IMG/VR virus record: IMGVR_UViG_3300020442_001473
Location: 1-23,908 of that record
Source of the DNA: a virus
Reading direction: 5' to 3' (one strand)
Length of the DNA stretch: 23,908 nt
Position numbers and translations under genes: made by a program. The notes beneath the pieces are model-generated. The model was given only the letters and a program-made list of their open reading frames with translations. It searched no databases and was not told the origin of the DNA. Positions 11,080-23,908 of this stretch are shown piece after piece. Within the stretch, counting starts at the first letter, position 1. Every line of letters starts with the position of its first letter.

Positions 11080-11921
11080 TGAAAACATATCTTTCTGTGG
11101 GAATTGGAGACATGCTGTGTCTCGATTCCCTTCTCGTTAATGAAGAACGAGAGAGCATCACTGAGATTTACTGGGCATGTAGATTTGGTACTGTCTTAGC
11201 CCCACTCTTTAAAAATAATCCATCATACCCTAACGTCACTACACAATACTTTATTGACGATGAGGTGGGAGCAAATGCAATGAGGAGTCTTGATCCCAAT
11301 GCTGCTCCCTTTTGGCATTTTAGGCCTGACTTTCCCAGAAACTTTAATATAGGTCTGAGTCTATTTGATTTAAGTGCAAATGATGTTCAGGCAATTGATG
11401 TTGCTGGAACTTTTGCTGAAGTGTGTGATGATGTTAGAAATGGAACTGCAGAGTTTCATGGATCTTCTTTTCTAAAGAATGCTAAGGATCCTGGGTATAG
11501 TGATTACATTCTGTTCCACTATCCAACATCAACTCGACCAAGGCAAGACATTGCTAGCATCACAGAATCTGATTGGCAGTTTGTAGAGGATCTGTCTCAG
11601 GAAACTGGTAAGCAAGTTATCATTGTTGCTGATCGTGAGATTGATGTTCCACTTACAAACTTTGAACTTCTAGTAAATCCTGATATTCAACATATCATTA
11701 ATCTTGTAGCATATTGTGATTACTATGCTGGATGTGATTCTTTCTGTGCTATACTTTCTGCAAAGAGACTTCCAAAAGAAAATCTATTTGTGAAGACTCA
11801 TGATCAGAATATCAAATCTAATCTATTGAGTGGAAACTCTGGATTCATGTATGCATACTTTAATCCACATCCACCAGAAGATATTGCATATTTCTATAAG
11901 CCTTATATTGGTAATCCATGA
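11079..11921 (+). CDS. Putative GT-B/GT9-like glycosyltransferase
   Basis: A 280-residue protein with an N-terminal LSVGIGDML loop (5-13) and a C-terminal segment, IINLVAYCDYYAGCDSF, that resembles the acceptor/donor-binding region of heptosyltransferase-like GT-B enzymes where a GxDSG-type loop follows a hydrophobic helix. It stands immediately before the ADP-heptose genes, so heptosyl transfer is a reasonable guess, no more. TGATG junction with the preceding gene and ATGA overlap with the next. Confidence 0.55.
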   Translation: MKTYLSVGIGDMLCLDSLLVNEERESITEIYWACRFGTVLAPLFKNNPSYPNVTTQYFIDDEVGANAMRSLDPNAAPFWHFRPDFPRNFNIGLSLFDLSANDVQAIDVAGTFAEVCDDVRNGTAEFHGSSFLKNAKDPGYSDYILFHYPTSTRPRQDIASITESDWQFVEDLSQETGKQVIIVADREIDVPLTNFELLVNPDIQHIINLVAYCDYYAGCDSFCAILSAKRLPKENLFVKTHDQNIKSNLLSGNSGFMYAYFNPHPPEDIAYFYKPYIGNP

Positions 11922-12649
11922 GTGGAATCTTAGTCATTGGCGAGACTTGCAGAGACGTATTTGTTTACTGTGATTCTAATAGATTGTGTCCTGAAGCACC
12001 TGTTCCTGTATTAAACATTGTTGACCAGAGGGAGAACCCTGGCATGGCTGGCAATGTTCGTAGGAATATTGAGAGTTTGTTAGGTGATGCAATTGATATC
12101 AACACCAACACAAACTGGTATGAGATTGCCAAGACCAGATATGTTCACAAAGAAAGCAATCACATGTTCTTTCGTGTGGATACAACTCAATCAATACCAA
12201 GAATTAATATCAAAGATATTGACTTTGGTTATGACTTGATTGTCATCTCTGATTATAATAAGGGATTCTTATTGGAAGAAGACATTGAATATATTTGTAC
12301 TAATCATTCAAATGTTTTTATCGATACTAAGAAAATTCTTGGTCCTTGGGTAAAAGATGCACGATATATCAAGATCAATGACTATGAATATCGTAATTCT
12401 GAACCATATCTAACTGAAGATATTAAGTATAAGATTATTCATACCATGGGTGGAAAGGGTTGTGAGTTTGCAGAGAGAAAATATCCCACTAAAAAGGTTG
12501 AAGTAAAGGATCTTTCTGGTGCAGGAGATACATTTATGGCTGGATTAGTGGTAAAATATATTGAAACCGAAGACATTGAGAAGAGTATTAAGTTTGCCAA
12601 TCAGTGTGCATCGAAAGTTGTAGCACAAAAAGGAGTTGCTGTATTATGA
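11918..12649 (+). CDS. PfkB-family kinase, heptose-7-phosphate kinase type
   Basis: A 243-residue ribokinase-fold protein like the N-terminal domain of HldE/RfaE. Features: LVIGETCRDVFVY, the diagnostic RLCPEAPVPV (22-31), NPGMAGNVRRN (40-50), ISDYNKG (110-116) and the catalytic anion-hole/base motif GAGDTF (201-206, Asp204). The family phosphorylates D-glycero-D-manno-heptose 7-phosphate at O1. It is about 70 residues shorter than the HldE kinase domain, mostly by loss in the middle. The adenylyltransferase half is a separate gene at 13431, so this is the split arrangement. An AGGAG at 12631 inside its end serves the next gene. Confidence 0.88.
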   Translation: MSGILVIGETCRDVFVYCDSNRLCPEAPVPVLNIVDQRENPGMAGNVRRNIESLLGDAIDINTNTNWYEIAKTRYVHKESNHMFFRVDTTQSIPRINIKDIDFGYDLIVISDYNKGFLLEEDIEYICTNHSNVFIDTKKILGPWVKDARYIKINDYEYRNSEPYLTEDIKYKIIHTMGGKGCEFAERKYPTKKVEVKDLSGAGDTFMAGLVVKYIETEDIEKSIKFANQCASKVVAQKGVAVL

Positions 12650-13434
12650 TTATTCTGACTGGATCTCAAGGATTCATTGGTAAAAAGTTTCTCAAGGCAC
12701 TACAAGATGCTGGTAAAGAAGTTATTGAAGTAGAGAAGAACGATAGTTGGCACTGGAGAAAAAACTTTTACAACTGGAAAGATGTAGAGTGTATTATTCA
12801 CCAAGGTGCAATGTCATCTACAACTAATACAAATTTAAAACAGATATTCACATACAATATCGAATACAGTGAATGGTTGTTTGAGCAAGCAGCAAAGAAT
12901 GATATTCCTGTTAAGTATGCATCTTCTGCATCTGTCTATGGCAATCAGCAAGGTATTATCAATCCACTGAATTACTATGCTCTATCTAAAGTAACCACTG
13001 ACTATTGGGTACAAGATCATATAGATGAGTTTCCTCTCATTCAAGGATTCAGGTACTTCAACGTCTATGGTGATGGGGAAGATGATAAAGGAGATCAAGC
13101 AAGCCCAGTTAGTAAGTTTACAAAGCAAGTTCAAGAGACTGGTAAACTTAAATTGTTTGAAGGATCTGATAAGTTCTTAAGAGATTTTATTTGCGTTGAT
13201 GATATTGTTGATCTAGTTCTCAATAATAAAAAGAAGTCTGGTATCTACGATCTTGGCACTAGTAAACCTGTAAGTTTCCAACATGTTGCAGAATGCGTGG
13301 CAAAGAAGTATAATGGAGAGATTGAATACATTCCATTCCCAGATCACTTGAAAGGGAAGTATCAAGATTACACCTGTGCAAAACCAACATGGGGTGATTA
13401 TAAATTTACTACTGTAGAGGATTATCTTAAATGA
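12646..13434 (+). CDS. hldD: ADP-L-glycero-D-manno-heptose 6-epimerase
   Basis: A 262-residue extended SDR with strong HldD features: GSQGFIG (6-12), HQGAMSSTT (52-60), KYASSASVYG (90-99), YxxxK as Tyr111/Lys115, GFRYFNVYG, KLFEGSDKFLRDFICVDDI (in pieces) and IEYIPFPDHLKGKYQ. It interconverts the D,D and L,D forms of ADP-heptose, the donor for LPS inner-core heptosyl transfer. Typical HldD is about 310 residues; this one is trimmed in the N-terminal loops. ATG 12646 overlaps the kinase stop and has AGGAG ten bases upstream, which fixes the start over the upstream in-frame extension. Confidence 0.93.
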   Translation: MIILTGSQGFIGKKFLKALQDAGKEVIEVEKNDSWHWRKNFYNWKDVECIIHQGAMSSTTNTNLKQIFTYNIEYSEWLFEQAAKNDIPVKYASSASVYGNQQGIINPLNYYALSKVTTDYWVQDHIDEFPLIQGFRYFNVYGDGEDDKGDQASPVSKFTKQVQETGKLKLFEGSDKFLRDFICVDDIVDLVLNNKKKSGIYDLGTSKPVSFQHVAECVAKKYNGEIEYIPFPDHLKGKYQDYTCAKPTWGDYKFTTVEDYLK

Positions 13435-13829
13435 AGACCATCTGGACAAATGGATGCTTTGACATTCTTCACCCAGGACACATTGAACTGTTCAGAGCAT
13501 GTAAGGCTCTTGGAGATCGTTTGATTGTTGGCATCGATACTGATGAGAAGGTAAAAAGGGATAAAGGTTATTCTAGACCTGTCAATGACATCTGCTTCAG
13601 ATATACGATGCTGCAAGGTATTAAGTACATTGACGATATTCATATCTTTGATAGTCGCACAGAGTTGGAAGAGTTGATTCAATTCTATACTCCTGATGTT
13701 CTAGTTGTTGGTGGCGATTGGAGAGATGGAGATGTTGTTGGTCGTGAATATGCAAAAGAAGTAAGATTCTTTAATCGCGTTGGTGGTTATTCTTCCACAA
13801 AAATTATTAATAAAATTCAAAACTCATGA
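13431..13829 (+). CDS. Heptose 1-phosphate adenylyltransferase (HldE C-domain type)
   Basis: A 132-residue nucleotidyltransferase matching the C-terminal domain of HldE: TNGCFDILHPGH with HxGH at 14-17, GDRLIVGIDTDEKVKRDKG (28-46) and RPVND, PDVLVVGGDWRDGDVVG, and the closing YSSTKIINKI motif (120-129). It joins AMP to heptose 1-phosphate giving ADP-heptose. It overlaps hldD and the HAD phosphatase gene by ATGA junctions, completing a kinase-epimerase-adenylyltransferase-phosphatase order. It shares fold and end motif with the 909-1412 protein but is the better match to the heptose family. Confidence 0.9.
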   Translation: MKTIWTNGCFDILHPGHIELFRACKALGDRLIVGIDTDEKVKRDKGYSRPVNDICFRYTMLQGIKYIDDIHIFDSRTELEELIQFYTPDVLVVGGDWRDGDVVGREYAKEVRFFNRVGGYSSTKIINKIQNS

Positions 13830-14164
13830 GATACGTTGTTGATATTGATGGAACTATCTGTACCCCTGGAGAAACAGAGGAGACAAGGTATACACAAGCC
13901 TTGCCAATTCAAGATAGAATTGATAAAATAAATAGGTTGTACGATGAAGGACATACAATCGTATATCTTACTGCCAGAGGAATGGGTAGGCATAAGAACA
14001 ATGCAGACAAAGCAAAAGAAGAATTTTACGAACTTACAGAGATACAATTAAGTTTGTGGGGATGTAGGTATCATCAATTGTTTCTTGGTAAACCTTCTGG
14101 AGATTATTACATCGATGACAAAGGGGTAAACGATAATGACTTCTTCAAGACCGAAGCAGACTGA
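13826..14164 (+). CDS. HAD-family phosphatase
   Basis: A 112-residue minimal HAD phosphatase: VVDIDGT (4-10) with nucleophile Asp6 and Asp8, IVYLTARG with Thr49, LGKPSGDYYIDDKG with Lys89 and Asp97/Asp98. All four HAD motifs are present without a cap domain. Position after the three heptose genes makes it a candidate for the GmhB step (removing the C7 phosphate of heptose 1,7-bisphosphate), though GmhB proteins are larger and have zinc-binding cysteines not seen here. A general sugar-phosphate phosphatase is the alternative. Confidence 0.8.
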   Translation: MRYVVDIDGTICTPGETEETRYTQALPIQDRIDKINRLYDEGHTIVYLTARGMGRHKNNADKAKEEFYELTEIQLSLWGCRYHQLFLGKPSGDYYIDDKGVNDNDFFKTEAD

Positions 14165-14510
14165 TGCAATTCAATTAGTCCCTAAAGGATGGGGCTATGA
14201 AAAATGGATTGTGAATTGTGATCAGTACTGTGGAAAAATTCTGCATATGGTAAAAGGTAAGCGTTGCTCCTGGCATATGCATAAGATTAAAGATGAAGTA
14301 TTTTATGTCCAAAGTGGGAAGATTAAAATCTACTATGGGTGGAGTGATATGCTTGACATGGCTTCTGTTGCAACTTTAGAAAAGGGAGACAAGTTTCATA
14401 TCCCCACTGGAATGCGTCACCAGATGATTGCTCTAGAAGATACTGAATTGTTTGAATTTTCTACAGAGCATTTTGACGAAGATAGTTATAGACTTATCAA
14501 AGGGGATTGA
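14136..14510 (+). CDS. Cupin-domain protein, possibly a sugar-phosphate isomerase
   Basis: A 124-residue single-domain cupin. The metal-ligand set is intact: His47 and His49 in WHMH, Glu54 in DEVFYV and His95 in GMRHQM, within the usual beta-barrel motifs. The N-terminal KGWGYEKWIV resembles mannose-6-phosphate isomerase type cupins. Activity cannot be assigned. The ATG at 14136 lies inside the phosphatase gene, a 29-base overlap; the next in-frame Met would remove the first barrel strand, so the early start is kept. A good AGGGG site near its end serves the following gene. Confidence 0.75.
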   Translation: MTSSRPKQTDAIQLVPKGWGYEKWIVNCDQYCGKILHMVKGKRCSWHMHKIKDEVFYVQSGKIKIYYGWSDMLDMASVATLEKGDKFHIPTGMRHQMIALEDTELFEFSTEHFDEDSYRLIKGD

Positions 14511-14512
14511 AT

Positions 14513-15370
14513 ATGATTGGGATGAATAAACTGGGGACCAAGGGTAGACTTGGTAACCAGATGTTTCAGTATGCGTCGTTAGTAGGCATTGCTAAGAATC
14601 TGGGATACGATCATTGTATTCCAGATCATTCTGATGCGACATGGTTTCATAAACATGTTGGTGACAATATCGTTACGGTAAATCATCATTTACAACATTT
14701 GTTTGAACTCAATCATCTTAATGGTAGATTTGGTTTAGTTGATGGATATGATGTTGATGTGCATCAGCATGAATTCTGCGAAGAACTATTCAATGAGTGT
14801 CCAGACAATGCAAGTCTTCATGGCCACTTTGAGAGTTATAAGTATTTTGAGAACGCAGAAGAAGAGGTAAAGAAAGACTTTACCTTCAAGGAGAGTTACT
14901 TAGAAACTGCAGAAGCATTTCATAAGAAACACAATACAGATAATCCAGTGTGTCTAAACATTAGACGTGGTAAGGACTTTATCAGAGTTCAGGATTATCA
15001 TGCTATTTGTACAGAAGAATACTATAAAGGATGTATTGATGACCTTGGAAAAGATCGTCAATATATTGTCATATCTGATGATATTGAATGGTGTAAAACT
15101 ATTTTTACAGGTAGCAACTTTATTTTCAATGATGAAGAAAGAGAAGAGAATGCGAAGGCTCACCATGATATGTGTCTGGGTGCTTCTTGTTCAGACTTCA
15201 TCATTGCCAACAGTACATTCTCCTGGTGGATGGCATACCTAGGAAAAAGTAAAGATAAGAAAGTCTATATTCCAGATCCTTGGTTTGGTCCTGCGCTGAA
15301 TCACCTAGATACATCTGGTTACTATTTTCCTGGAACTGTAAGAGTTAATCGTGAGGTCGTTAGAGTATGA
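14513..15370 (+). CDS. GT11-family fucosyltransferase-like enzyme (first copy)
   Basis: A 285-residue protein with alpha-1,2-fucosyltransferase (GT11) signatures: GRLGNQMFQYA (11-21), HGHFESYKYF (103-112) and IIANSTFSWWMAYL (230-243). The family's donor-site HxRRGDY is NIRRGKD here (149-155), retaining both arginines but changing the flanking His and Asp. I start it at ATG 14513, seven bases after AGGGG (14501-14505); an in-frame TTG at 14507 adds two residues. It is paralogous to 16170-16985. Confidence 0.88.
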   Translation: MIGMNKLGTKGRLGNQMFQYASLVGIAKNLGYDHCIPDHSDATWFHKHVGDNIVTVNHHLQHLFELNHLNGRFGLVDGYDVDVHQHEFCEELFNECPDNASLHGHFESYKYFENAEEEVKKDFTFKESYLETAEAFHKKHNTDNPVCLNIRRGKDFIRVQDYHAICTEEYYKGCIDDLGKDRQYIVISDDIEWCKTIFTGSNFIFNDEEREENAKAHHDMCLGASCSDFIIANSTFSWWMAYLGKSKDKKVYIPDPWFGPALNHLDTSGYYFPGTVRVNREVVRV

Positions 15371-16173
15371 TGGATTTGACATTTCTCATTCCTGCAAGGA
15401 TTGAGACTGAAGATAGACTTAGGAATATAATTTCATCAGTAACTTACTTGCTCAGGAATGTTCCTGCTAAAGTTATTGTAAAAGAAGTATCCAATAGATC
15501 ACTGTTTAAGTTCAGGGCTCTACCTGAAATTAAGAAGTATGCAAACGTAGATAACCTTACGCACATTTTTGAGGAGAATCACGAACCCTTATTCTGTAAG
15601 AGTAAAGTATTAAATGATCTTATCATTGCATCAGACACAAAAGTCGTTGCAAACTATGATGCTGATTGCATTTTACCAATCAGTTCTTATCATGAAGCTT
15701 ACAGTTTGATTAATGATGGACATGCAGATGTAGTGTACCCATACCAGTCTGGTATCTACCAGTGGTGTGCAGACTATGATATGCAAATCTATAATGAGTT
15801 TATCAATAAACTTGATGTGTCAGTTCTTGATAAGAAAAAGAGACTATCTAATTCAACAATTGGATGGACTCAGTTTGTAAATCGTCAGAAGTATATTGAC
15901 AGTTTTATGATGAATGAGAACTTCGTTTCATGGGGATGTGAAGACGATGAATTCTATTATCGTATGAGTGTTCTTGGTAATCGTATTAAGAGAGTCAATG
16001 ATTATGTTTATCATTTAGAGCACTCCAGGACACATAACTCTTGGTTCAGCAATCCCAACTTTAATAACAACTATCAACTGTGGCATAAGATCAAAACGTT
16101 TGACAGAAAGCAGCTGGTAAGTTATTATGAAAACCAGGAGTATCTACAAAGAAGAAAGGCACAACTGAAATGA
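15367..16173 (+). CDS. GT-A type glycosyltransferase (GT2/galactosyltransferase-like)
   Basis: A 268-residue protein with an N-terminal FLIPAR strand, a DxD-type metal site NYDADC (Asp98, Asp100) and a C-terminal SWGCEDDEFYYRM motif typical of the C-terminal galactosyltransferase (Glyco_transf_7C-like) domain. This indicates a GT-A enzyme using a UDP- or GDP-sugar. The donor and acceptor are unknown. It lies between two GT11 paralogues with ATGA overlaps on both sides, so all three probably build one oligosaccharide. Confidence 0.82.
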   Translation: MMDLTFLIPARIETEDRLRNIISSVTYLLRNVPAKVIVKEVSNRSLFKFRALPEIKKYANVDNLTHIFEENHEPLFCKSKVLNDLIIASDTKVVANYDADCILPISSYHEAYSLINDGHADVVYPYQSGIYQWCADYDMQIYNEFINKLDVSVLDKKKRLSNSTIGWTQFVNRQKYIDSFMMNENFVSWGCEDDEFYYRMSVLGNRIKRVNDYVYHLEHSRTHNSWFSNPNFNNNYQLWHKIKTFDRKQLVSYYENQEYLQRRKAQLK

Positions 16174-16985
16174 TAGGTTTTAATGCTCTGGGGCGAATGG
16201 GAAGATTCGCCAATCAAATGTTCCAGTATGCAGCACTAAAAGGCATTGCAAGAAATACTGGAGTAGATTTCTGTATTCCATATCATGAACAACCAGTTGA
16301 TGATGGTCTTGGGAATATGGTTAGGTCAGAACTATTTGATTCTTTTGATCTGAAAGTTAATACTGGCTTTCTTAATAATGGACATGCTCCATCTGTAAAA
16401 GAAAGATTCTTTCACTTTGATGAAGAACTTTTTAAGTTGTGCCCTGATCATGTAAGTCTAATTGGATACTTCCAATCAGAAAAATACTTCAAGCATATTG
16501 AAGATGAAATCCGTGAGGACTTTACTTTCAAGGATGATATTCTAAATCCTTGCAAAGAAATGATTGCTTCTGTAGATAATCCTATTGCACTACATGTTCG
16601 TCGCACTGATTATATAACGAACAGTGTTAATCATCCTCCTTGTACTCTTGAATACTATGAGGCTGCACTGAAGCACTTTGATGATGATCGAAATGTAATT
16701 GTGTTCTCTGATGACCCTGCATGGTGTAGTGAGCAAGAGTTGTTCTCTGATGATCGATTCATGATCTCTGAGAACACTGACAATAGGGTTGATCTGTGTC
16801 TAATGACCCTTTGTGATGATTTTATCATTGCCAACTCTTCCTTCTCTTGGTGGGGCGCATGGCTATCTTCTAACAAAGATAAGAAAGTTATTGCACCATC
16901 TCGATGGTTTGGTGAGGAAGGATATACTAAAAACAACGATACCAAAGATTTAATTCCCGATGGCTGGACAAGAATTACTGCTTGA
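16170..16985 (+). CDS. GT11-family fucosyltransferase-like enzyme (second copy)
   Basis: A 271-residue GT11 protein: GRFANQMFQYAALKGIA (11-27), LIGYFQSEKYF (97-107), a near-canonical donor motif HVRRTDY (142-148), and IIANSSFSWWGAWL with the conserved Trp pair. It shares the overall layout of the 14513 protein but has the better-preserved active site. Family members transfer L-fucose in alpha-1,2 linkage from GDP-fucose. The next gene begins inside its end (26-base overlap). Confidence 0.9.
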   Translation: MIGFNALGRMGRFANQMFQYAALKGIARNTGVDFCIPYHEQPVDDGLGNMVRSELFDSFDLKVNTGFLNNGHAPSVKERFFHFDEELFKLCPDHVSLIGYFQSEKYFKHIEDEIREDFTFKDDILNPCKEMIASVDNPIALHVRRTDYITNSVNHPPCTLEYYEAALKHFDDDRNVIVFSDDPAWCSEQELFSDDRFMISENTDNRVDLCLMTLCDDFIIANSSFSWWGAWLSSNKDKKVIAPSRWFGEEGYTKNNDTKDLIPDGWTRITA

Positions 16986-17793
16986 CAAAAATAAGTCTGC
17001 ATTTAAATTAAAAAACTTTCCACATGTCTATTGGTTGAATCTTGATAGTGATACTGATAGACGAACATATATGGAGAACCAATTTAAGTATTGGGAAATT
17101 CCTAACCATACTAGAATCTCAGGATATGATGCCAGAGGTGACAATGATGTTTCATGTCATCTCAAAGGTAGAATTCCTGACAATGTCAATCAGAATGAAC
17201 TTGGTTGCTGCATGTCGCATCTAAAAGCAATCAAGCATTTTTATGAAGAAACAAATGATGAGTATTGCATTATCGTAGAAGATGATGTAAATTTAGACAT
17301 AGCAAAGTATTGGAATTTTACATGGACTGATGTCTTTTCCCTTCTTCCATATGATTGGGACTGCATTCAGTTGACCACTATTTGCACTGGTGATATTCAT
17401 GTAAAACTTCATCATAAGTTTATCAATGATTTTTCTGCTGCCATTTACTTGATCAATAGGCATCATGCTGCTAAAATCATGAAGCATCACATTCGTGGTG
17501 ACAAGTATAAACTTGATAATGGAGTCAAACCAAGAGCTGTGTCTGAGGATGTTGTTCTAGAGAGTGGGAAGACATATACGATTCCTTTGTTCTTGTATAA
17601 TCTTGCATTTCAATCAACGATTCATCAAGAACACATCAGCATCTTTCATCAGGCACCTCACGATGCTTTGCTCAACTGGTGGCAACAGTCTGGTGCAAGT
17701 ATTGACATCAAGGACCATATGAACTATGATCCTTACCTGGGTCGAATCACTGAACCTTCATCACAGAAGAGAGAGGAAACCCAACCTACTTGA
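16960..17793 (+). CDS. GT25-family glycosyltransferase
   Basis: A 277-residue protein of the LPS-biosynthesis GT25 family: VYWLNLDSDTDRR (23-35), a NELGCCMSHLKAIKHF segment (79-94) and the acidic metal/donor site IVEDDV (105-110), with DWDCIQL after it. Family members commonly transfer beta-linked galactose or glucose to lipooligosaccharide. The Asn-Leu-Asp-X-X-X-Asp-Arg signature is intact. It is the last gene of the block. Its stop codon sits within a TTGACA promoter element (17790-17795). Confidence 0.88.
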   Translation: MAGQELLLDKNKSAFKLKNFPHVYWLNLDSDTDRRTYMENQFKYWEIPNHTRISGYDARGDNDVSCHLKGRIPDNVNQNELGCCMSHLKAIKHFYEETNDEYCIIVEDDVNLDIAKYWNFTWTDVFSLLPYDWDCIQLTTICTGDIHVKLHHKFINDFSAAIYLINRHHAAKIMKHHIRGDKYKLDNGVKPRAVSEDVVLESGKTYTIPLFLYNLAFQSTIHQEHISIFHQAPHDALLNWWQQSGASIDIKDHMNYDPYLGRITEPSSQKREETQPT

Positions 17794-17823
17794 CAAGATC
17801 TTAAGATTTTGTTAGTATAAATA
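17790..17823 (+). promoter_or_regulatory. Composite early/late promoter
   Basis: TTGACA (17790-17795), a 17-base spacer and TAGTAT (17813-17818) form a fair sigma70-type promoter. A perfect T4 late octamer TATAAATA overlaps the latter (17816-17823). The late element is the stronger call. It drives the secreted-protein gene at 17927 through a leader of about 95 bases. Confidence 0.75.
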
Positions 17824-17827
17824 CTTA

Positions 17828-17903
17828 ACCTTTTGTCATAATTTAGGCAAAGGTATAACGGGGAGTTGTCGATTCCCTTCCATCTGCGGGTAACCATTCC
17901 GCA
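17828..17903 (+). promoter_or_regulatory. Structured 5' leader with three consecutive hairpins
   Basis: Three stems follow each other in the leader of the 17927 gene: ACCTTTTG/CAAAGGT (17828-17854, one bulged T), GGGGA/TCCCT (17860-17878) and TGCGG/CCGCA (17885-17903). They end nine bases before AAGAGG (17912-17917), the ribosome-binding site. No intrinsic-terminator T-run follows. This may be a cis-regulatory or mRNA-stabilising leader; comparison with the wcaG and PhotoRC cyanophage RNA motifs would be informative. Confidence 0.5.
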
Positions 17904-17926
17904 AGTAAACTAAGAGGTAAAAACAA

Positions 17927-18292
17927 ATGATCAAATCTGTATTCGCAGCAACTGCTGCTCTGTCCATGTCTGCTGGTGCTGCTTTTGCAGGGCCTTACGT
18001 TAACGTAGAAACCAATGCTGGTTGGACTGGAGACGATTACACCGGAGCAACCACAGATATCCACGTAGGCTATGAGGGTACTATTGGTGCTGCTTCCTAC
18101 TACGTCCAAGGTGGCCCTGCAGTTGTTGCTGCTGATGGTGCAGATACCGAGACTGAGTTCTCTGGTAAGGCAGGTATTGGACTGCCTGTTTCCGATGCTA
18201 TCGGGGTCTATGGTGAGGTTTCTTTCCTGACCGCAGAAGACGATGACGACTTTGGTGTCGGTGGTAAACTGGGTGTGAAGTATAACTTCTGA
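17927..18292 (+). CDS. Secreted beta-barrel-like outer-membrane protein
   Basis: A 121-residue protein with a classical signal peptide (Lys3, hydrophobic Ala-rich core, predicted cleavage after AFA at residue 21). The mature part of about 100 residues alternates polar and nonpolar residues in short beta-strand-like stretches (PYVNVETN, TDIHVGYEG, ASYYVQGG, GVYGEVSFL, GGKLGVKYNF) and ends in Phe, the C-terminal signature used by the outer-membrane barrel assembly machine. Length would suit a small barrel or half-barrel. It follows a late promoter and a structured leader, and is closed by a terminator, so it is a stand-alone late unit. Function unknown; altering the host surface is one idea. 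Confidence 0.82.
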   Translation: MIKSVFAATAALSMSAGAAFAGPYVNVETNAGWTGDDYTGATTDIHVGYEGTIGAASYYVQGGPAVVAADGADTETEFSGKAGIGLPVSDAIGVYGEVSFLTAEDDDDFGVGGKLGVKYNF

Positions 18293-18328
18293 TTGTAGAG
18301 TAGACATATAAACATCTAGGTGTTATGA

Positions 18329-18354
18329 TGGGGGTGCGACGGCACCCCTTTTTT
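18329..18354 (+). terminator. Intrinsic terminator
   Basis: Stem GGGGTGC (18331-18337), loop GACG, GCACCCC (18342-18348), followed by six T. It closes the transcript of the secreted-protein gene. The next gene's ATG is only two bases past the T-run. Confidence 0.92.
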
Positions 18355-18355
18355 A

Positions 18356-18547
18356 ATGTTCAAAAGGATTCTACTTTCTCCTGTCACCCACTTCAATATC
18401 TTAATTGTAGGATTTTTTATTCTTGTTGGTGTGATGCACAATAACTATCATCATCGTATGGATGAAGATGTTCATGGTTATGTGAGACAATTTTGTGAGA
18501 AAAATCTTGAGAAATGTCAGGATATCGTAGAAGGAGATGACTACTAA
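18356..18547 (+). CDS. Small single-pass membrane protein
   Basis: A 63-residue protein with one hydrophobic segment (about residues 13-27, FNILIVGFFILVGVM), a His-rich stretch (HNNYHHRMDEDVH) and a C-terminal tail with two Cys (FCEKNLEKC). The topology and Cys pair suggest the tail may be exported. No family recognised. The start follows a terminator T-run directly and has no evident ribosome-binding site, so expression would depend on read-through; treat as probable rather than certain. Confidence 0.6.
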   Translation: MFKRILLSPVTHFNILIVGFFILVGVMHNNYHHRMDEDVHGYVRQFCEKNLEKCQDIVEGDDY

Positions 18548-18563
18548 GTATAAATCACTACAG

Positions 18564-18590
18564 AGGAACCCTTGACAGGGTTCCTTTTTT
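18564..18590 (+). terminator. Intrinsic terminator whose loop is a perfect -35 box
   Basis: A perfect 8-base-pair stem AGGAACCC (18564-18571) / GGGTTCCT (18578-18585) followed by T's to 18590. The six-base loop is exactly TTGACA, the sigma70 consensus -35 of the downstream hli promoter. Same design as at 849-887. Confidence 0.93.
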
Positions 18591-18600
18591 ACTATATAAT
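18572..18600 (+). promoter_or_regulatory. Consensus sigma70-type promoter for the hli operon
   Basis: TTGACA (18572-18577), 17-base spacer, TATAAT (18595-18600): full consensus in both boxes with ideal spacing. Transcription should start near 18607, about 20 bases before the hli ATG at 18627. Its -35 is the loop of the preceding terminator. Host RNA polymerase would read it as a strong early promoter. Confidence 0.9.
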
Positions 18601-18626
18601 ATGTAAAGATTTGCAACATAAAGTAA

Positions 18627-18830
18627 ATGACTGTAACGACGAACGAATTTGGTCAACAGAATCTGTTCGCCAAAGAACCCCAAATGGTAGTAGAATCCTA
18701 CAACCGCAAGGGTCTTGAATCCCCACAGCAATATGCTGAGACCTATAATGGTCGTTGGGCAATGATGGGAATCGTTTCTGGTTTCATCTCCTATGCCTTC
18801 ACTGGCAACTTCTTCTTCGGTATCTTCTGA
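18627..18830 (+). CDS. hli: High-light-inducible protein
   Basis: A 67-residue Hli protein. The chlorophyll a/b-binding motif ExxNGRxAMxG is complete (AETYNGRWAMMG, residues 37-48), followed by one transmembrane helix (about 43-62). The N-terminal 36 residues are polar and face the cytoplasmic side of the thylakoid. Hli proteins bind chlorophyll and carotenoid and protect photosystem II during stress; cyanophages carry them to keep host photosynthesis running. It is first in an early micro-operon and its stop overlaps the next start as TGATG. Confidence 0.95.
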   Translation: MTVTTNEFGQQNLFAKEPQMVVESYNRKGLESPQQYAETYNGRWAMMGIVSGFISYAFTGNFFFGIF

Positions 18831-18916
18831 TGACTGAAGCAATTTTCACCGTAACTTCGGTTGCGTTCTTCGTCCTTCTGAGTTACTCCGTACAACAACT
18901 TTCTGAGACTTACTGA
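18830..18916 (+). CDS. 28-residue single-pass membrane peptide
   Basis: The sequence MTEAIFTVTSVAFFVLLSYS followed by VQQLSETY forms one hydrophobic helix (about residues 4-20) with short polar ends. It is coupled by TGATG junctions to hli upstream and to 18916 downstream, which supports it as real despite its size. The size and topology resemble small photosystem subunits, but no specific match to PsbT, PsbM, PetN or similar is apparent. Confidence 0.6.
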   Translation: MTEAIFTVTSVAFFVLLSYSVQQLSETY

Positions 18917-19104
18917 TGCCTGACTTGATTGAACTCCTGACTTATTATGTGATCGTTCTGCTTCTCTTTGTAGGAGCACCAGGAGTATTCTTCTTTATTG
19001 TGTTCATGCCCGCACTTCAAAATACTAAGGGTCGTATGGTAGGATACAAAGACCATAAAACCTATGGTGATTCTACTATATACGAAGTAAACAGAACTAT
19101 TTGA
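18916..19104 (+). CDS. Small membrane protein
   Basis: A 62-residue protein with a long hydrophobic stretch (residues about 7-34, LTYYVIVLLLFVGAPG then VFFFIVFMPAL), long enough for one long or two short passes, and a polar C-terminal tail of about 27 residues (NTKGRMVGYKDHKTYGD). No known family. It is translationally coupled to the preceding peptide and part of the hli micro-operon, so a thylakoid or membrane role alongside Hli is likely but unproven. Confidence 0.7.
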   Translation: MPDLIELLTYYVIVLLLFVGAPGVFFFIVFMPALQNTKGRMVGYKDHKTYGDSTIYEVNRTI

Positions 19105-19105
19105 T

Positions 19106-19255
19106 ATGCCGGACCCAGACGCACTTTGGAAGGATATCCAGAAACTCGACGATATGTATGAAGAACTTCTGTGGCATCCTGACGACGAATTACAATTCTC
19201 TCATGATGGAGAGAAAATTATAATCACAAACAAAACTTTGGAGAATAGAAAATGA
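19106..19255 (+). CDS. 49-residue acidic protein
   Basis: Starts at ATG 19106, one base after the previous stop, and ends at TGA 19253-19255, overlapping the next start (ATGA). It is acidic and soluble: MPDPDALWKDIQKLDDMYEE, then a WHPDDELQFSHDG segment and IIITNKTLENRK. The central Asp/Glu pattern is helical. No function recognised. Being the only soluble member among membrane peptides, it could be an accessory or regulatory factor. Confidence 0.6.
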   Translation: MPDPDALWKDIQKLDDMYEELLWHPDDELQFSHDGEKIIITNKTLENRK

Positions 19256-19359
19256 ACGAAAAAGCAGAACGCATTAATGGATGGGCAGCAATGATTGGCG
19301 TCGTTGCAGCAATGGGATCATATGCAACAACAGGTCAAATCATCCCAGGTTTATGGTGA
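19252..19359 (+). CDS. Very short Hli-like protein (35 residues)
   Basis: Begins MNEKAERINGWAAMIGVVAA and ends GQIIPGLW. It carries the chlorophyll-binding pattern ExxNGxxAMxG (Glu6, Asn9, Gly10, Met14, Gly16) with Trp in the place of the usual Arg, followed by a single helix and a TTGQIIPG end typical of short cyanobacterial Hli proteins. Hli proteins of roughly this size are essentially a bare chlorophyll-binding helix. It is the second such gene in the operon after the 18627 gene. Confidence 0.8.
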   Translation: MNEKAERINGWAAMIGVVAAMGSYATTGQIIPGLW

Positions 19360-19493
19360 ACGACGTGTTAGTCATTGCAGCATCCATGATAGGAGGGTTT
19401 ATCTTTGCAGCCCTGTTGAGTGATGGAGATGTAGATGATGATGATCACTTTGATGGTGGGATGATGATCCCAGCATCAGTTCCCGCCCCTTGA
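19353..19493 (+). CDS. 46-residue membrane protein with acidic tail
   Basis: Starts at ATG 19353, overlapping the end of the short Hli gene, and ends at TGA 19491-19493. One transmembrane helix (about residues 4-22, VLVIAASMIGGFIFAALL) is followed by an Asp-rich tail (DGDVDDDDHFDGG) and a Pro/Ala end. No function recognised. An in-frame ATG at 19281 would extend it through the Hli-like gene and is unlikely. Last gene of the hli micro-operon; its end overlaps the -35 of the next promoter. Confidence 0.65.
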   Translation: MVNDVLVIAASMIGGFIFAALLSDGDVDDDDHFDGGMMIPASVPAP

Positions 19494-19518
19494 CAAACTC
19501 AATTAAATAAGATATGAT
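19490..19518 (+). promoter_or_regulatory. Sigma70-type early promoter
   Basis: TTGACA (19490-19495), 17-base spacer, TATGAT (19513-19518). The -35 overlaps the stop region of the preceding gene. Transcription should start around 19525, inside the hairpin 19520-19540, so promoter transcripts lack its left arm while upstream read-through transcripts contain it all. Confidence 0.8.
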
Positions 19519-19933
19519 AAGGGAGCAAATACTGTTCCCTATTTTTATGCTCGCACTTATTCTGGCACTCAGTGCCGTTGATTACGATCATCTTGCTAGG
19601 ACTGTTCAGGTTGAGGCTGCAAAGGGGACCATGGACGAATACTGTGTTGCAGTCTCTGTATTGAATCGAGTAAAGAGTCCACATTTTCCAAACACTGTTG
19701 CTGATGTAGTATATGCTCCTGGTCAATATCAGGGATTTGATTTTCATAGACCTGTAGCAGATCCTAAAGTTGTTGCTCGACTAAAGGACAATAGTAAGAT
19801 GCTCGCAGCATATGACATCATTGGAAATCGAACAGACTTCAAAGGTCAAAGTCAACTCAAATACAGAGTTGTATCCGAAGATCCAATGTGTAGCACTAAA
19901 GGAAACTTCTACCACTATTTTTGGCAGACATGA
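19514..19933 (+). CDS. SleB-type cell-wall hydrolase, candidate endolysin
   Basis: A 139-residue protein of the Hydrolase_2/SleB family: LARTVQVEAAKG with the catalytic Glu34, VAVSVLNRVKSPHFPNT (in the 45-61 region), and DVVYAPGQYQGF. These enzymes cleave peptidoglycan glycan strands. The N-terminus has a short hydrophobic segment (residues 6-21) that could be a signal-anchor. Start is uncertain: ATG 19514 falls inside the -10 box of the promoter just upstream, so transcripts from that promoter would use ATG 19547 (128 residues). The longer start would need read-through from the hli operon. Likely the lysis enzyme or a virion-associated hydrolase. Confidence 0.85.
   Translation: MIREQILFPIFMLALILALSAVDYDHLARTVQVEAAKGTMDEYCVAVSVLNRVKSPHFPNTVADVVYAPGQYQGFDFHRPVADPKVVARLKDNSKMLAAYDIIGNRTDFKGQSQLKYRVVSEDPMCSTKGNFYHYFWQT
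19520..19546 (+). terminator. Probable terminator overlapping a promoter
   Basis: Stem AGGGAGC (19520-19526) / GTTCCCT (19534-19540) with one G-T pair, a seven-base loop and ATTTTT after it. It would stop transcripts arriving from the hli operon. It lies just downstream of the -10 at 19513-19518, and ATG 19547 follows its T-run directly. It also sits inside the reading frame if translation begins at 19514. Confidence 0.65.
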
Positions 19934-20346
19934 ATATCAAAGCAATCAAAGAATCGATTCAAATTTTTTCAAGAAAAGCGGTTACAAAAATTAATTGGCC
20001 ACTTACAGATAAAGAAATTGAGTGTGCCATTGATGATAATATTGTAGAGTGTTCTGAAATGGATTCTCCACCATACACTGGTATTCCTGCACCAGCAGTT
20101 CTTCAAGATGATTCTTGGTTTGGATCTGCTCCTGATCTAACTGAGAAACAAAAAGAATATCAACAAAAACAACAAGAAGCAACAGAAAGATTGCATGAAG
20201 ATATTCGCAGTGAAACTAAAGAATCTGAAGATATTCACCAAGTGATGTATGATATGGCAACTCAGAATGCTGCCACTACTCTTCAACTTGATCCTATTGG
20301 TGGATCTGAGAACTTCCAAGGAGGATCAGAGAATGTCCATCGATGA
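19930..20346 (+). CDS. Hypothetical Gln/Lys/Glu-rich protein
   Basis: A 138-residue protein with an N-terminal helical part (NIKAIKESIQIFSRKAVTKI), a Pro-containing middle (SPPYTGIPAPAV), a strongly helical QKEYQQKQQEATERLHEDI region suited to a coiled coil, and a C-terminal GGSENFQGGSEN duplication. No enzyme motif. Start is ATG 19930, overlapping the hydrolase stop; an in-frame TTG at 19921 is possible. The DNA of the duplicated GGSEN end also carries the ribosome-binding site of the next gene. Confidence 0.7.
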   Translation: MNIKAIKESIQIFSRKAVTKINWPLTDKEIECAIDDNIVECSEMDSPPYTGIPAPAVLQDDSWFGSAPDLTEKQKEYQQKQQEATERLHEDIRSETKESEDIHQVMYDMATQNAATTLQLDPIGGSENFQGGSENVHR

Positions 20347-20554
20347 TTGGCGATATAGCGATCATAAAATGAAAGTCAGAGAACAATCACTCAAAGTTTT
20401 GCTTTCTAGGTTCGGTGGAGAAATGGAAGGAGTATGTCCTAAATACACCAGTCAATCAATCTACGAATGTGTTCATGATTGGGTATCTCAAGGAAATATG
20501 AACACCGCAGGGATTGTAAAATATTACGAGGCTTATTATGCAAAAGGTAATTAA
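20333..20554 (+). CDS. Small hypothetical protein
   Basis: A 73-residue soluble protein beginning MSIDDWRYSDHKMKVREQSL with two Cys further on and an aromatic C-terminus (VKYYEAYYAKGN). ATG 20333 is strongly supported by AAGGAGG (20318-20324) eight bases upstream, against the longer upstream in-frame start at 20249. It overlaps the preceding gene by 14 bases and the next by 17. Family not recognised. Confidence 0.75.
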   Translation: MSIDDWRYSDHKMKVREQSLKVLLSRFGGEMEGVCPKYTSQSIYECVHDWVSQGNMNTAGIVKYYEAYYAKGN

Positions 20555-20783
20555 CGTTTTAGCAGTTCTATCATTCTTAGGAACTGCTGGTATTATCGGT
20601 GGAGGAACATTTGTTTATCTTCGTCGTGATGCAATTGCTGAGAGAGTAAAAGATAACATTGCTAATGCAGCAGTGGAAGCAATTTCAGAAGCACTTCCTG
20701 GTATGATGAATGCTGCCATGCCAGAACTACCTAGCACTACTGGCGGTGCTATTCCCCCCACTACAGTATTTCCTACTAAATGA
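20538..20783 (+). CDS. Small membrane-anchored protein
   Basis: An 81-residue protein with one N-terminal transmembrane helix (about residues 5-27, VLAVLSFLGTAGIIGGGTFVY), a basic patch (LRRDAIAERVK) directly after it, an amphipathic Ala/Met-rich helix and a Pro/Thr-rich C-terminus. The positive flank suggests the body lies in the cytoplasm. No family recognised. Neighbours on both sides overlap it (the next by ATGA), so it belongs to the same transcript as the hydrolase and the secreted HExxH protein. Confidence 0.75.
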   Translation: MQKVINVLAVLSFLGTAGIIGGGTFVYLRRDAIAERVKDNIANAAVEAISEALPGMMNAAMPELPSTTGGAIPPTTVFPTK

Positions 20784-21457
20784 AAAAAATTATTATGAGT
20801 TTGTTGGCTGCAGCATCACTGTCTGCTCCAGCACTGGCTGATAACTCTAAGATCACCAAGGGTTACCATACTATGGATGCTATGGGGTGTATGCTACTTC
20901 GAGAGTGTACAGATGGAGTCGATAAAGTCGAAAGTATCGCAAGTATTGCTAGTGAGTATCCCGATAGTAATTTTGATCCTGTTGCTAACGAATTCAACAC
21001 AATGCTCGTCGCTCTTGAGCAGGTCGGAGTTGGGGTGTTTCTAGCAGACTCCAAGTATTTTCCTGTTGGACATCGTGGTGTTTATCACACTGTTGGCAAC
21101 AACTTCTTCCTTAATCGTACCTTTATGCATCGACCACATACTCTCATGAGTGTGATGCGTCATGAAGGATGGCACGCCGCACAAGACTGTATGGCAGGAA
21201 CTATCAAGAATAGTATGATTGCCATCATCAAGAATGAAGAAGATGTACCTAAGATCTGGCAAGAGATTGCTTCTAAAACATATGAGGATATGCCACATGC
21301 AATTCCTTGGGAGAAAGAAGCAACTTGGGCAGGTAAAACTGAAGATATGACGATGAAAGCACTTCAGTCCTGTGCTGCAGGAACTATGTGGAGTGATTAT
21401 GAGCCCACACCTCTGACACGCCAATGGTTAGTTGAAAACGGTTACCTCTCTAAATAA
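20780..21457 (+). CDS. Secreted HExxH zinc-metallopeptidase-like protein
   Basis: A 225-residue exported protein. A signal peptide (KK, hydrophobic core, cleavage after ALA at residue 20) is followed by a domain with VMRHEGWHAAQD, giving HExxH at 128-132, and a later PWEKEATWAG segment with Glu178 and Glu180 in the place of a third zinc ligand. Several Cys residues (37, 43, 137, 198) could form disulfides in the periplasm. This is the zincin active-site layout, but the overall fold is unrecognised, so 'peptidase-like' is the safe call. Position among lysis and membrane genes suggests cleavage of an envelope protein or peptide. The stop codon is within a CTAAATA late-promoter-like motif. Confidence 0.78.
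   Translation: MKKIIMSLLAAASLSAPALADNSKITKGYHTMDAMGCMLLRECTDGVDKVESIASIASEYPDSNFDPVANEFNTMLVALEQVGVGVFLADSKYFPVGHRGVYHTVGNNFFLNRTFMHRPHTLMSVMRHEGWHAAQDCMAGTIKNSMIAIIKNEEDVPKIWQEIASKTYEDMPHAIPWEKEATWAGKTEDMTMKALQSCAAGTMWSDYEPTPLTRQWLVENGYLSK
21450..21456 (+). promoter_or_regulatory. T4-type late promoter candidate (CTAAATA)
   Basis: CTAAATAA (21450-21457) overlaps the stop codon of the HExxH gene, 21 bases before the ATG at 21478. Same form as the element at 490-496. It would give the downstream membrane and nuclease genes a late start. Confidence 0.55.
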
Positions 21458-21477
21458 AGTTGCCTTACCCTAATTCA

Positions 21478-21765
21478 ATGGAATCAAATCCAAAGAAGAA
21501 GGAGGAAACCAAACAGAATAAGTTTGACTGGGCAGATGAAGGTCTGTCGGCATTGGTGCGCGTTGTTATTCTTTCGTGGTCTGCAGCAATACTCACTTTA
21601 AATTATGTGACTATTCCTGGTGTTCCTCAAAAGAATATCGATCCCACATTTATAGCCAGTGTCTTCACCGGAACTTTAGCCACTTTCGGAGTTGTTCCTG
21701 CAAAGAAGGATAAGAAAGAAGAAAAAGATAAACCTGAATTGGAGAAAAAAGAAAAAATAAACTAA
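21478..21765 (+). CDS. Two-pass membrane protein, holin candidate
   Basis: A 95-residue protein with a charged N-terminus, two hydrophobic segments (about residues 27-47, LVRVVILSWSAAILTLNYV, and 57-76, TFIASVFTGTLATFGVVPA) and a highly charged Lys/Glu C-terminus (KKDKKEEKDKPELEKKEK). Size, two passes and charged tail fit a class II holin, which would release the SleB-type hydrolase encoded at 19514. This is inference from architecture. ATG 21478 is preferred over an in-frame TTG at 21460. Confidence 0.7.
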   Translation: MESNPKKKEETKQNKFDWADEGLSALVRVVILSWSAAILTLNYVTIPGVPQKNIDPTFIASVFTGTLATFGVVPAKKDKKEEKDKPELEKKEKIN

Positions 21766-21778
21766 TTGAGGTTAGTCA

Positions 21779-22417
21779 ATGAACTTATCAAAATCATCTT
21801 CACAAGAACCACAAAAACCACAAGAACCATCAGCATCAAAGCATAGTCCATTCAAATGGATTGCTCTTGGTGTTGGTGGTCTTTTTGCTGTAGCACACAT
21901 TGGAGTTCTTGGGCACCTTTTAAAAAAAGAACCACCAGTTCAATCAGTACCTACAATCAATCTACCTAGAGGCCCCTACTCTTCCTACAGGATTAAGGCA
22001 GGAAAGGATGGATATGAAATTGAGTATCGTGCTAATGATCCTAAGATTTTAGAGTCTGAAAGATCACTTGACTTGGACAAAGAAAAGAGAGGTCTTTTTG
22101 GTGGTGGAACTGAGCAACGCACAGAGTATCGTCGTGATCAATACACTATGGAAGGCACCCGTAATATGGGGTCAGGAGGTGCCGTAGCAAACGGTGAGGG
22201 AAAGAGTGCAAAAGACGTAGAGTGTTTGATCGCGGACGCTGGAGCACGATCACAAGGTGCAATGGCAGGGACCGCAATTAGCACTGGAGTTCTTGTTCCT
22301 GCAGTAATGAACATTCCATATATTGGATGGTTGGCAGCAGGATGGGCCACTCTTCTAGGAAATCAAGTAGGAGAATCTATTGGTTCAGAAGTTGGTTCTG
22401 TATTTAATGATTGCTGA
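21779..22417 (+). CDS. Membrane-anchored protein with glycine-rich hydrophobic C-terminus
   Basis: A 212-residue protein. A polar Gln/Pro/Ser N-terminus is followed by a membrane helix (about residues 27-48, WIALGVGGLFAVAHIGVLG), a charged middle region (YRIKAGKDGYEIEYR; SERSLDLDKEKRG), and a C-terminal hydrophobic Gly/Ala region (about 153-205) resembling a glycine-zipper hairpin (GAMAGTAISTGVLVPAVM; LAAGWATLLGN). Two Cys near the end of the middle and at the last residue. Glycine-zipper proteins insert in or bend membranes, so an envelope or virion membrane-interaction role is possible. GAGG lies nine bases before the ATG. Confidence 0.75.
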   Translation: MNLSKSSSQEPQKPQEPSASKHSPFKWIALGVGGLFAVAHIGVLGHLLKKEPPVQSVPTINLPRGPYSSYRIKAGKDGYEIEYRANDPKILESERSLDLDKEKRGLFGGGTEQRTEYRRDQYTMEGTRNMGSGGAVANGEGKSAKDVECLIADAGARSQGAMAGTAISTGVLVPAVMNIPYIGWLAAGWATLLGNQVGESIGSEVGSVFNDC

Positions 22418-22623
22418 TGAATCTCTTCTTGAGACCACTTGTGGATGTTAATGATATAACTTGGAGTATTGTTGTTTCTCTGATAATACTTCTTGCTGGC
22501 GTTTCGTATTACATATATACAATTATGAGTTATGCTTTTGAGGAGTTAGCAGATGCCGGATCAAATCAACAAAAAGGACGCAGATCAGGATCAGATGATA
22601 GCACTGTTGGAACACAGGATTGA
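22417..22623 (+). CDS. Small single-pass membrane protein
   Basis: A 68-residue protein with one transmembrane helix (about residues 15-37, WSIVVSLIILLAGVSYYIYTI) and a Ser/Asp/Gly-rich tail (KGRRSGSDDSTVG). TGATG junction with the preceding stop. Its last 71 bases overlap the next gene in another frame; the tail's low complexity suggests the neighbour's frame is the constrained one there. No family recognised. Confidence 0.65.
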   Translation: MNLFLRPLVDVNDITWSIVVSLIILLAGVSYYIYTIMSYAFEELADAGSNQQKGRRSGSDDSTVGTQD

Positions 22624-22819
22624 AGATACTGAAAAAATGGCAGAAGAACTTCGTGATCGTGTTCGTAAATTAGAACGCTGGGTCTGGGGTGCTGGTGCTG
22701 TAATTACTGCTCTTATAACTATAGTTGGACTAGTCGAAGCAGTAGATTCAAAGGAGATCGATTATGGGCGCAATGGTTCCACCCAGCAGGAAGTCGTGTT
22801 ACAACTTTCGCGTAGTTGA
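22553..22819 (+). CDS. XhlA-like coiled-coil membrane protein
   Basis: An 88-residue protein with an N-terminal coiled coil (about residues 12-42, ALLEHRIEDTEKMAEELRD then RVRKLERWVWG) and one transmembrane helix (about 46-62, GAVITALITIVGLVEAV). This is the layout of XhlA/hemolysin-like proteins that accompany phage holins. ATG 22553 has AGGAG (22541-22545) seven bases upstream, supporting a real gene in spite of the overlap with its predecessor. Its last 56 bases overlap the nuclease gene. Confidence 0.7.
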   Translation: MPDQINKKDADQDQMIALLEHRIEDTEKMAEELRDRVRKLERWVWGAGAVITALITIVGLVEAVDSKEIDYGRNGSTQQEVVLQLSRS

Positions 22820-23225
22820 GATCAATAGAGTTCTTGATGGTGACACAATTGATGTCACCATTGATTTAGGATTTGATCTTTATAAGAAAGAAAGAGTTAG
22901 AGTCGCAGGTGTTGATACACCAGAAAAACGCACCAGAGACTTAGAAGAAAAAGCATTAGGTTATGATGCAACTAACTGGCTCAAGGAGAAACTGGAAGGT
23001 GCTATTTCTGGAGACGATGAGCTCGCAGTTAGAACTGAACTTGTTGGTGGTGTGGGTAAGTATGGTCGCCTTCTTGGTTGGTTATATATTGGAGATGCAG
23101 AAGTATCATTGAATGAACAGATGATTGAAGAAGGTTATGCCTGGGCATATGATGGTGGAACTAAACAAAAAGATTTTGAGGAGTTAAGAGAGATCAGGAG
23201 AGCACATGGCACCCTAGTCGAGTAA
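22764..23225 (+). CDS. Staphylococcal-nuclease-like thermonuclease
   Basis: A 153-residue SNase-fold nuclease: VLDGDTIDV with calcium-site Asp25, RVRVAGVDTPE with Arg46, Asp51 and Glu54, and KYGRLLGWLY with Arg102. These match Asp21, Arg35, Asp40, Glu43 and Arg87 of staphylococcal nuclease, so the full active site is conserved. It hydrolyses DNA and RNA with calcium. No signal peptide is visible, so it acts in the host cell or in the virion, perhaps in host DNA breakdown. ATG 22764 has AAGGAG seven bases upstream. SD-supported start lies within the preceding gene. Confidence 0.92.
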   Translation: MGAMVPPSRKSCYNFRVVEINRVLDGDTIDVTIDLGFDLYKKERVRVAGVDTPEKRTRDLEEKALGYDATNWLKEKLEGAISGDDELAVRTELVGGVGKYGRLLGWLYIGDAEVSLNEQMIEEGYAWAYDGGTKQKDFEELREIRRAHGTLVE

Positions 23226-23228
23226 TTT

Positions 23229-23908
23229 ATGCCACAGATTAATAATATTGATATTGATAACTTAAATATTAGACCACTGAATGTATACGTTCCTTCTAGA
23301 TTAGTACGTGATCCTCCAGTGGCACTTCCCATTTACCCACCTGTAACATCGCAGGTGGGTGTTCCTATTGTCAACATGCCTGGATGTGTAGAGGCTCATA
23401 TTGATAGTGGAGAAAACCAAACTCTCAAAGATGAAGATCCTAAGAACGTTAGGACATTTTGTGATGCAGGAACTCCATCATTCAGTCCAATTGATTATGA
23501 TGCAAATAAATTGGAGTATGAGCATGAGGCACCAGAACCTCCACCAATTGCCCCACCCCAAAAACCTGATGCGCCAGAAGCAAACACACAGACACCTGAA
23601 GTACCCAAGACAGAGGAAAAAGTACCAGAGTGTCCTAGTAGAGCACAGCAATTAAAAAACCCCATAGGGAAGATCCTAGAGGGCAATAAGAAAATTGTTA
23701 ATTATGAGATGGTTGGTAAAGAATGTCTTCCAGTATTTGAGACACTTTCTATTCCTGATCAGATTGTTCAAAACATACCATCAGCAGGTATGGTGACTAC
23801 TACGGCATCAATCGCCGTGGTGGCAACTTCGTCGGCACTGCTTGCAAAACCTCTTGCTGATCTTTTGTTAAAAGTGGTGAAACCGACTGTGAAGAAGGTA
23901 ATGAAGAA
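23229..23908 (+). CDS. Proline-rich protein, probably a virion component (3' end outside window)
   Basis: An open frame from ATG 23229, three bases after the nuclease stop, continues past the window end (226 codons visible). The N-terminal part is mixed (PQINNIDIDNLNIRPLNVYV), the middle is Pro/Glu-rich and disordered-looking (EAPEPPPIAPPQKPDAPEA; TPEVPKTEEKVPECP), and the visible end has an Ala/Val-rich segment (TASIAVVATSSALLAKPLAD) before a Lys-rich stretch. No enzyme motif. Structural role is a guess from composition and position. Confidence 0.8.
   Translation, partial: MPQINNIDIDNLNIRPLNVYVPSRLVRDPPVALPIYPPVTSQVGVPIVNMPGCVEAHIDSGENQTLKDEDPKNVRTFCDAGTPSFSPIDYDANKLEYEHEAPEPPPIAPPQKPDAPEANTQTPEVPKTEEKVPECPSRAQQLKNPIGKILEGNKKIVNYEMVGKECLPVFETLSIPDQIVQNIPSAGMVTTTASIAVVATSSALLAKPLADLLLKVVKPTVKKVMK

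Follow-up and report, generated by a model that had tools for sequence, protein, structure and literature searches.

How can some 40 bp of phage DNA stop one transcript and start the next, when a single run of bases would have to serve as both hairpin loop and promoter box? The question is raised by positions 18564-18600 of a 23,908-nucleotide stretch (hereafter the window) from a 24-kb virus record, IMG/VR IMGVR_UViG_3300020442_001473, whose best relatives are two T4-like cyanophages, Bellamy (genus Bellamyvirus) and S-SM2 (genus Nilusvirus). Over the 93 bp spanning the element, Bellamy shows no difference and S-SM2 is 96.8% identical. Our preferred reading, to which we assign a probability of about 0.86, is that one strand encodes a dual-role element, acting as a terminator in RNA and as a promoter in duplex DNA.

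Terminator and promoter signals within the same 37 bp

Read directly, the + strand at 18564-18600 is AGGAACCC-TTGACA-GGGTTCCT-TTTTT-ACTA-TATAAT (Table 1), which confirms the parts named in the initial annotation: an 8-bp perfect stem, TTGACA, a 17-base spacer containing the closing arm and T-run, and TATAAT. The two boxes match the sigma-70-type consensus at 12/12 positions with a spacer of exactly 17, an arrangement conserved across hli loci; this is the sole 12/12 promoter of that type in the scanned part of the window (10000-23908), and no other TTGACA-N16..18-TATAAT occurs anywhere in the record. The claim that a full-consensus promoter precedes hli is likewise borne out, as the ORF that begins 26 bp after the end of TATAAT belongs to phrog_178. 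On the other side, the transcript that this terminator would end is that of the 63-aa ORF.

Table 1. Coordinates of the element and its neighbors in the window.
Feature	Position	Strand	Remarks
Upstream 63-aa ORF	18356..18547	+	phrog_2587, function unknown; stop codon 24 nt before TTGACA
5' arm of terminator hairpin	18562..18571	+	core AGGAACCC at 18564-18571, plus two outer pairs; from fold and covariation
TTGACA, -35 box and hairpin loop	18572..18577	+	T18572-A18577 closes TGAC tetraloop
3' arm of hairpin	18578..18587	+	core GGGTTCCT at 18578-18585; within promoter spacer; from covariation
Terminator T-run	18585..18590	+	within promoter spacer; first bases able to pair with outer 5' arm
TATAAT, -10 box	18595..18600	+	17 bp after TTGACA
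hli transcription start, predicted	18607..18608	+	placed by distance from -10
hli, high light inducible protein, 67 aa	18627..18830	+	phrog_178, E = 5.6e-32

As RNA, the region is predicted to fold into a hairpin of 11 bp capped by a TGAC tetraloop (-16.1 kcal/mol, z -3.4); as DNA, it forms 9 bp and again a TGAC loop (-9.2 kcal/mol). The description of the loop as exactly TTGACA thus holds if the closing T-A pair is disregarded, but the loop predicted by both folds is TGAC. A stable, GC-rich RNA hairpin with T6 right after the stem has the form of an intrinsic terminator. However, a simple terminator scan of the region (10000-23908) found 10 candidates against 7.7 ± 2.9 in shuffles, which by itself is not above chance, and the reality of the element rests on the comparative evidence below. 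Rfam returned no match at the element site; elsewhere in the window, a wcaG RNA lies at 744-843 (RF01761, 93.8 bits), ahead of a nucleotide-sugar gene cluster. As a separate observation, the sequence GTATAAATCACTACA (18548-18562) is conserved between the stop codons of differing upstream genes and the hairpin, and it includes TATAAAT, reminiscent of T4 late promoters.

Covariation of the stem and the level of selection

In nearly all of 80 hli loci sampled from public viral contigs, the -35 reads TTGAC(A/G) or a close variant, the spacer measures 17-18 bp, and the -10 reads TATA(A/C)T. The stem occurs in many versions, all of them paired: GGAACCC/GGGTTCC, GCACCCC/GGGGTGC, GAGGGCC/GGCCCTC, GGACCTC/GAGGTCC, GCAACCC/GGGTTGC, and GGGGGC-TTGAC-GCCCCC. 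Among 23 distinct aligned elements, pairing holds in 97.3% of cells, and both sides have changed at seven of the eight pairs; these two-sided changes occupy 40 cells, compared to 11.5 ± 2.4 in shuffles (a value reached in 0 of 500) and 6-10 in slid controls, a shuffle-based comparison that is inflated by kinship, as the hli loci are non-independent events. Because the aligned hli elements show up to four pair types per stem position and the slid controls stay low, an account that dispenses with structure is very unlikely. TTGAC, the core of the T-run, and TATA-T are invariant across 24 aligned loci. Aligning hli-upstream regions, the check that the initial annotation had put forward, therefore finds loop and stem conserved together by compensatory change.

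Whether selection sees this hairpin as RNA or as DNA can be judged from what accompanies it. Stem length is bimodal in 51 unique hli upstream contexts (at least seven pairs in 22, at most five in 29), and a spacer T-run of four or more occurs in 21 of the 22 contexts with a hairpin vs. one of the 29 without (Fisher 4e-12). Interior non-Watson-Crick pairs in 64 nested elements from the fetched contigs comprise 13 G.U, no A.C, and three others. A DNA hairpin would treat G.T and A.C alike, whereas a hairpin in the + strand RNA tolerates G.U only. Since the T-run is tied to the hairpin and wobbles are G.U but never A.C, selection appears to act on the transcribed RNA, i.e., on a terminator, which favors termination and disfavors extrusion.

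The initial annotation had instead suggested that supercoiling could extrude the inverted repeat as a cruciform, leaving the -35 single-stranded and thereby regulating the hli promoter. The repeat does fold as single-stranded DNA, with the energy given above, and phage N4 offers a precedent for promoter hairpins that are extruded, but a cruciform needs neither a T-run nor a preference for G.U over A.C; moreover, the stem is short and the promoter is retained at loci that have no hairpin. Extrusion would also place most of the -35 in the loop, and sigma region 4 reads the -35 as duplex. We therefore give this proposal almost no credence and favor a terminator selected as RNA.

The hairpin is optional for the promoter, and the terminator not essential, because 29 of the 51 unique hli contexts keep the promoter without it. 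Such loci had been named in advance as evidence against a terminator-promoter module; they do exist, but nesting stands wherever the hairpin is present. In 10 hairpin-less contexts (L023, L029, L030, L039, L042, L056, L060, L070, L071, and L072), the TGA within TTGACA is the stop codon of an upstream ORF, so that any 5' arm would run into coding sequence, whereas at loci with a hairpin the upstream stop codon lies 15-40 nt before TTGACA. A stop codon within the -35 box is another form of base sharing. An ordinary terminator lies farther upstream at some of the hairpin-less loci. A rule by which the hairpin is absent when the upstream gene is far was dropped, as better ORF calling placed the upstream gene directly next to many loci that have no hairpin; the 15-40 nt rule for loci with a hairpin stands.

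Between the -10 and the ATG, 48 of 52 hli promoters carry TGTAA/TTACA half-sites (about 6 expected from shuffles), which lie at 18602-18615 in the window. The half-sites resemble those of HLR1, the host high-light element bound by RpaB (PMC6331805), but are inverted rather than direct. Judged by eye, the dyad suits neither an NtcA site nor a classic HLR1 in spacing or orientation.

Distribution of the nested arrangement

A scan of viral contigs for CCTTGACAGG-N15-TATAAT returned at least 115 unique contexts with bimodal stems; among the matches listed, 39 stems reached 6 bp or more, and 38 of these were followed by a T-run. In the spacing-15 control scan of viral contigs, no stem exceeded 4 bp among the matches listed (18 contexts), while at spacing 19, eight of the 19 matches listed had stems of at least 6 bp. 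Some of these spacing-19 stems probably belong to genuine terminators whose -10 is displaced, so T-run scans taken by themselves carry less weight than covariation and a scan blind to the -10. This last scan, the cleanest test, sought only CCC-TTGACA-GGG-N4-T5 and disregarded the -10, keeping hairpins of at least 6 bp: among the matches listed, a TATAAT-like box (at least 5/6) lay at spacing 17 in 48 of 89 unique hairpins, each other spacing had 0-10 such boxes, and all 19 perfect TATAAT hexamers stood at spacing 17.

These results bear on whether terminator and promoter overlap by chance or through plain shared ancestry, the nesting itself being unselected. The near-chance outcome of the terminator scan would suit such an account, as would the nested share of terminators in Bellamy (1/23) and Syn9 (0/17), most of which are not nested. 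However, it would have to accommodate stem covariation around a fixed loop, the -10 peak at spacing 17 in loop terminators and the absence of long stems at spacing 15 (both among the matches listed), and the many unrelated stems and genes involved, and we judge it very improbable. The view that a compact terminator-promoter module uses its loop as the -35 gains from the compensatory stem changes and from how widespread the design is.

Nested elements with a -10 number at least 112 and precede at least about 33 downstream gene families, of which the hli family holds 33 elements among the matches listed; other downstream genes resemble ThyX (by eye), glutaredoxin, GIY-YIG endonuclease, AAA ATPase, cytidylyltransferase, and asparagine synthase. 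The design occurs mostly in cyanophages among the matches listed. When sampled loci were compared with named phages, three of four matched cyanophages and one matched Enterococcus phage BC611; for one further sampled nested locus, no match was found. Four Saphexavirus Enterococcus phages carry a nested element, and Pseudomonas phage JG004 has one whose stem is bulged and whose -10, TATTCT, is weaker, and which, by its sequence, probably belongs to the same design; the JG004 paper lists that terminator and no promoter there (PMC3120641). About 85,000 genomes of bacteria and archaea were scanned with a similar pattern; of the 43 unique contexts recovered, just four had a stem of at least 6 bp, which makes the nested design very rare in bacterial genomes. 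Copies within a phage are few: the approximately 193 kb of Bellamy that were read hold one, and the window has no second nested copy besides 18564-18600.

The genes that precede the module differ from locus to locus. Proteins upstream of hli loci with a hairpin fall into unrelated groups, including a phosphate-binding PstS-like protein (eight loci; identified by eye and from its place in Bellamy), the family of the 63-aa ORF, an outer-membrane protein of cyanophages akin to the one at window 17927-18292 (PF24653), and several others. Points of homologous exchange between phages is the role proposed for the PeSL (promoter-early stem-loop) cassettes of T4-like phages, and a module that follows unrelated upstream genes in different phages could similarly be a mobile recombination cassette, kept mainly for exchange with transcription control secondary. 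Yet stem sequences vary widely between loci, making them poor substrates for homologous exchange, and Bellamy has a single nested copy; a primary role in recombination thus seems quite unlikely.

Across 1142 promoters in the fetched DNA, hairpin-promoter distances cluster near -36, 0, and +22 to +46, with the zero-distance class enriched by the scans themselves. A third arrangement, seen in 17 cases at -36 to -41 from the loop center, places the -10 directly before a terminator-like hairpin (window 18301-18349 and 19490-19540; 23039-23095 in L116, Bellamy; L117, S-SM2; L496, Syn9). The start site of such a promoter would fall in the 5' arm, and its transcript could therefore not form the terminator.

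Proposed working and comparison with known systems

Under the dual-role reading, the upstream transcript would fold into a hairpin of 8-11 bp followed by U6, and host RNA polymerase would stop at approximately 18586-18590. As duplex DNA, the same stretch would be a consensus host sigma-70-type promoter bound by free holoenzyme, with its -35 in the hairpin loop and the 3' arm and T-run inside its 17-bp spacer. Transcription of hli, presumably early, would begin near 18607, and because this start lies downstream of the hairpin, the hli transcript would be immune to the terminator. The likely purpose would be compaction and insulation: read-through would be halted and hli given its own promoter, all in about 40 bp.

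Alternatively, the polymerase freed at the T-run, already positioned on the promoter, might keep or regain sigma and restart at hli, coupling hli to upstream transcription. In vitro, polymerase can remain on the DNA after termination, retain sigma, and diffuse or slide to reinitiate at nearby promoters (PMC6978380, PMC11347151), and the stop site here lies inside a promoter. However, both studies report no sighting of this in vivo, and a stalled polymerase might equally block the promoter, so we consider such a relay unlikely at this locus. Its extension, in which nested terminator-promoters would be a general phage device that hands polymerase between units and couples downstream initiation to upstream transcription, is similarly doubtful.

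With or without recycling, the dual-role element would be one short sequence read twice, as RNA hairpin and as duplex promoter, with comparative evidence for selection on both, and built from unrelated stems before at least about 33 downstream families, in phages whose hosts belong to at least two groups and probably to three. We offer a TTGACA loop, a T-run, and TATAAT at 17 as an annotation rule. Genetic design could also borrow the element as a compact unit of insulator plus promoter, and its zero distance offers a natural setting for testing whether polymerase recycles after termination.

In the literature, we found no description of a -35 within a terminator loop, which is weak evidence as most subscription journals lay outside the search, and the exact nesting could have been described elsewhere. 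Among related systems, an ordinary terminator with a tandem promoter likewise combines a GC-rich hairpin, a T-run, and a promoter for the next gene, but sets the signals side by side, whereas here both occupy the same 37 bp. In phage N4, promoters function as DNA hairpins that are extruded, carry a 3-nt loop, and are recognized by a polymerase of the phage. They share with our element an inverted repeat that overlaps a promoter; in contrast, our promoter is of the host sigma-70 type with its hexamers 17 bp apart, the predicted loop is the four-base TGAC, and G.U wobbles without A.C point to a hairpin selected as RNA. The recycling systems resemble it in having a terminator near the next promoter, which would favor reinitiation, but were studied with separate promoters or at genome-wide distances (PMC6978380, PMC11347151), whereas the distance here is zero and reinitiation would be putative.

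The closest likeness is to the PeSL cassettes, reportedly described by Arbiol et al. in 2010 and Comeau et al. in 2014. PeSLs are terminator-promoter composites in T4-like phages (PMC4503421). The element resembles them in that a terminator-like stem-loop and a presumably early sigma-70-type promoter share a single short intergenic motif, in a T4-like phage, and that the flanking genes vary. PeSLs are also credited with marking the boundaries of gene exchange, a role that at hli would be putative; unrelated upstream genes precede the same hli module. Order and spacing differ. Of the 35 terminators in phage RB49 (150 kb), none is nested and 13 belong to composites; in 11 of these composites, the -35 lies +29 to +46 from the loop center. 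The 50 kb of T4 yield three composites, at distances of about +29 to +43; KVP40 contributes one doubtful near-nested case. Composites in RB49 (L489, L497, and L615) fall into two spacing classes, approximately +30 and +42 to +46 from loop center to -35. In RB49 the promoter thus follows the hairpin, whereas here the offset is 0 and the -35 is the loop itself, and the dozen or so composites of RB49 contrast with a single nested copy in Bellamy and in the window. Judged by its sequence, the element is PeSL-like as a composite and unlike PeSLs in order and spacing.
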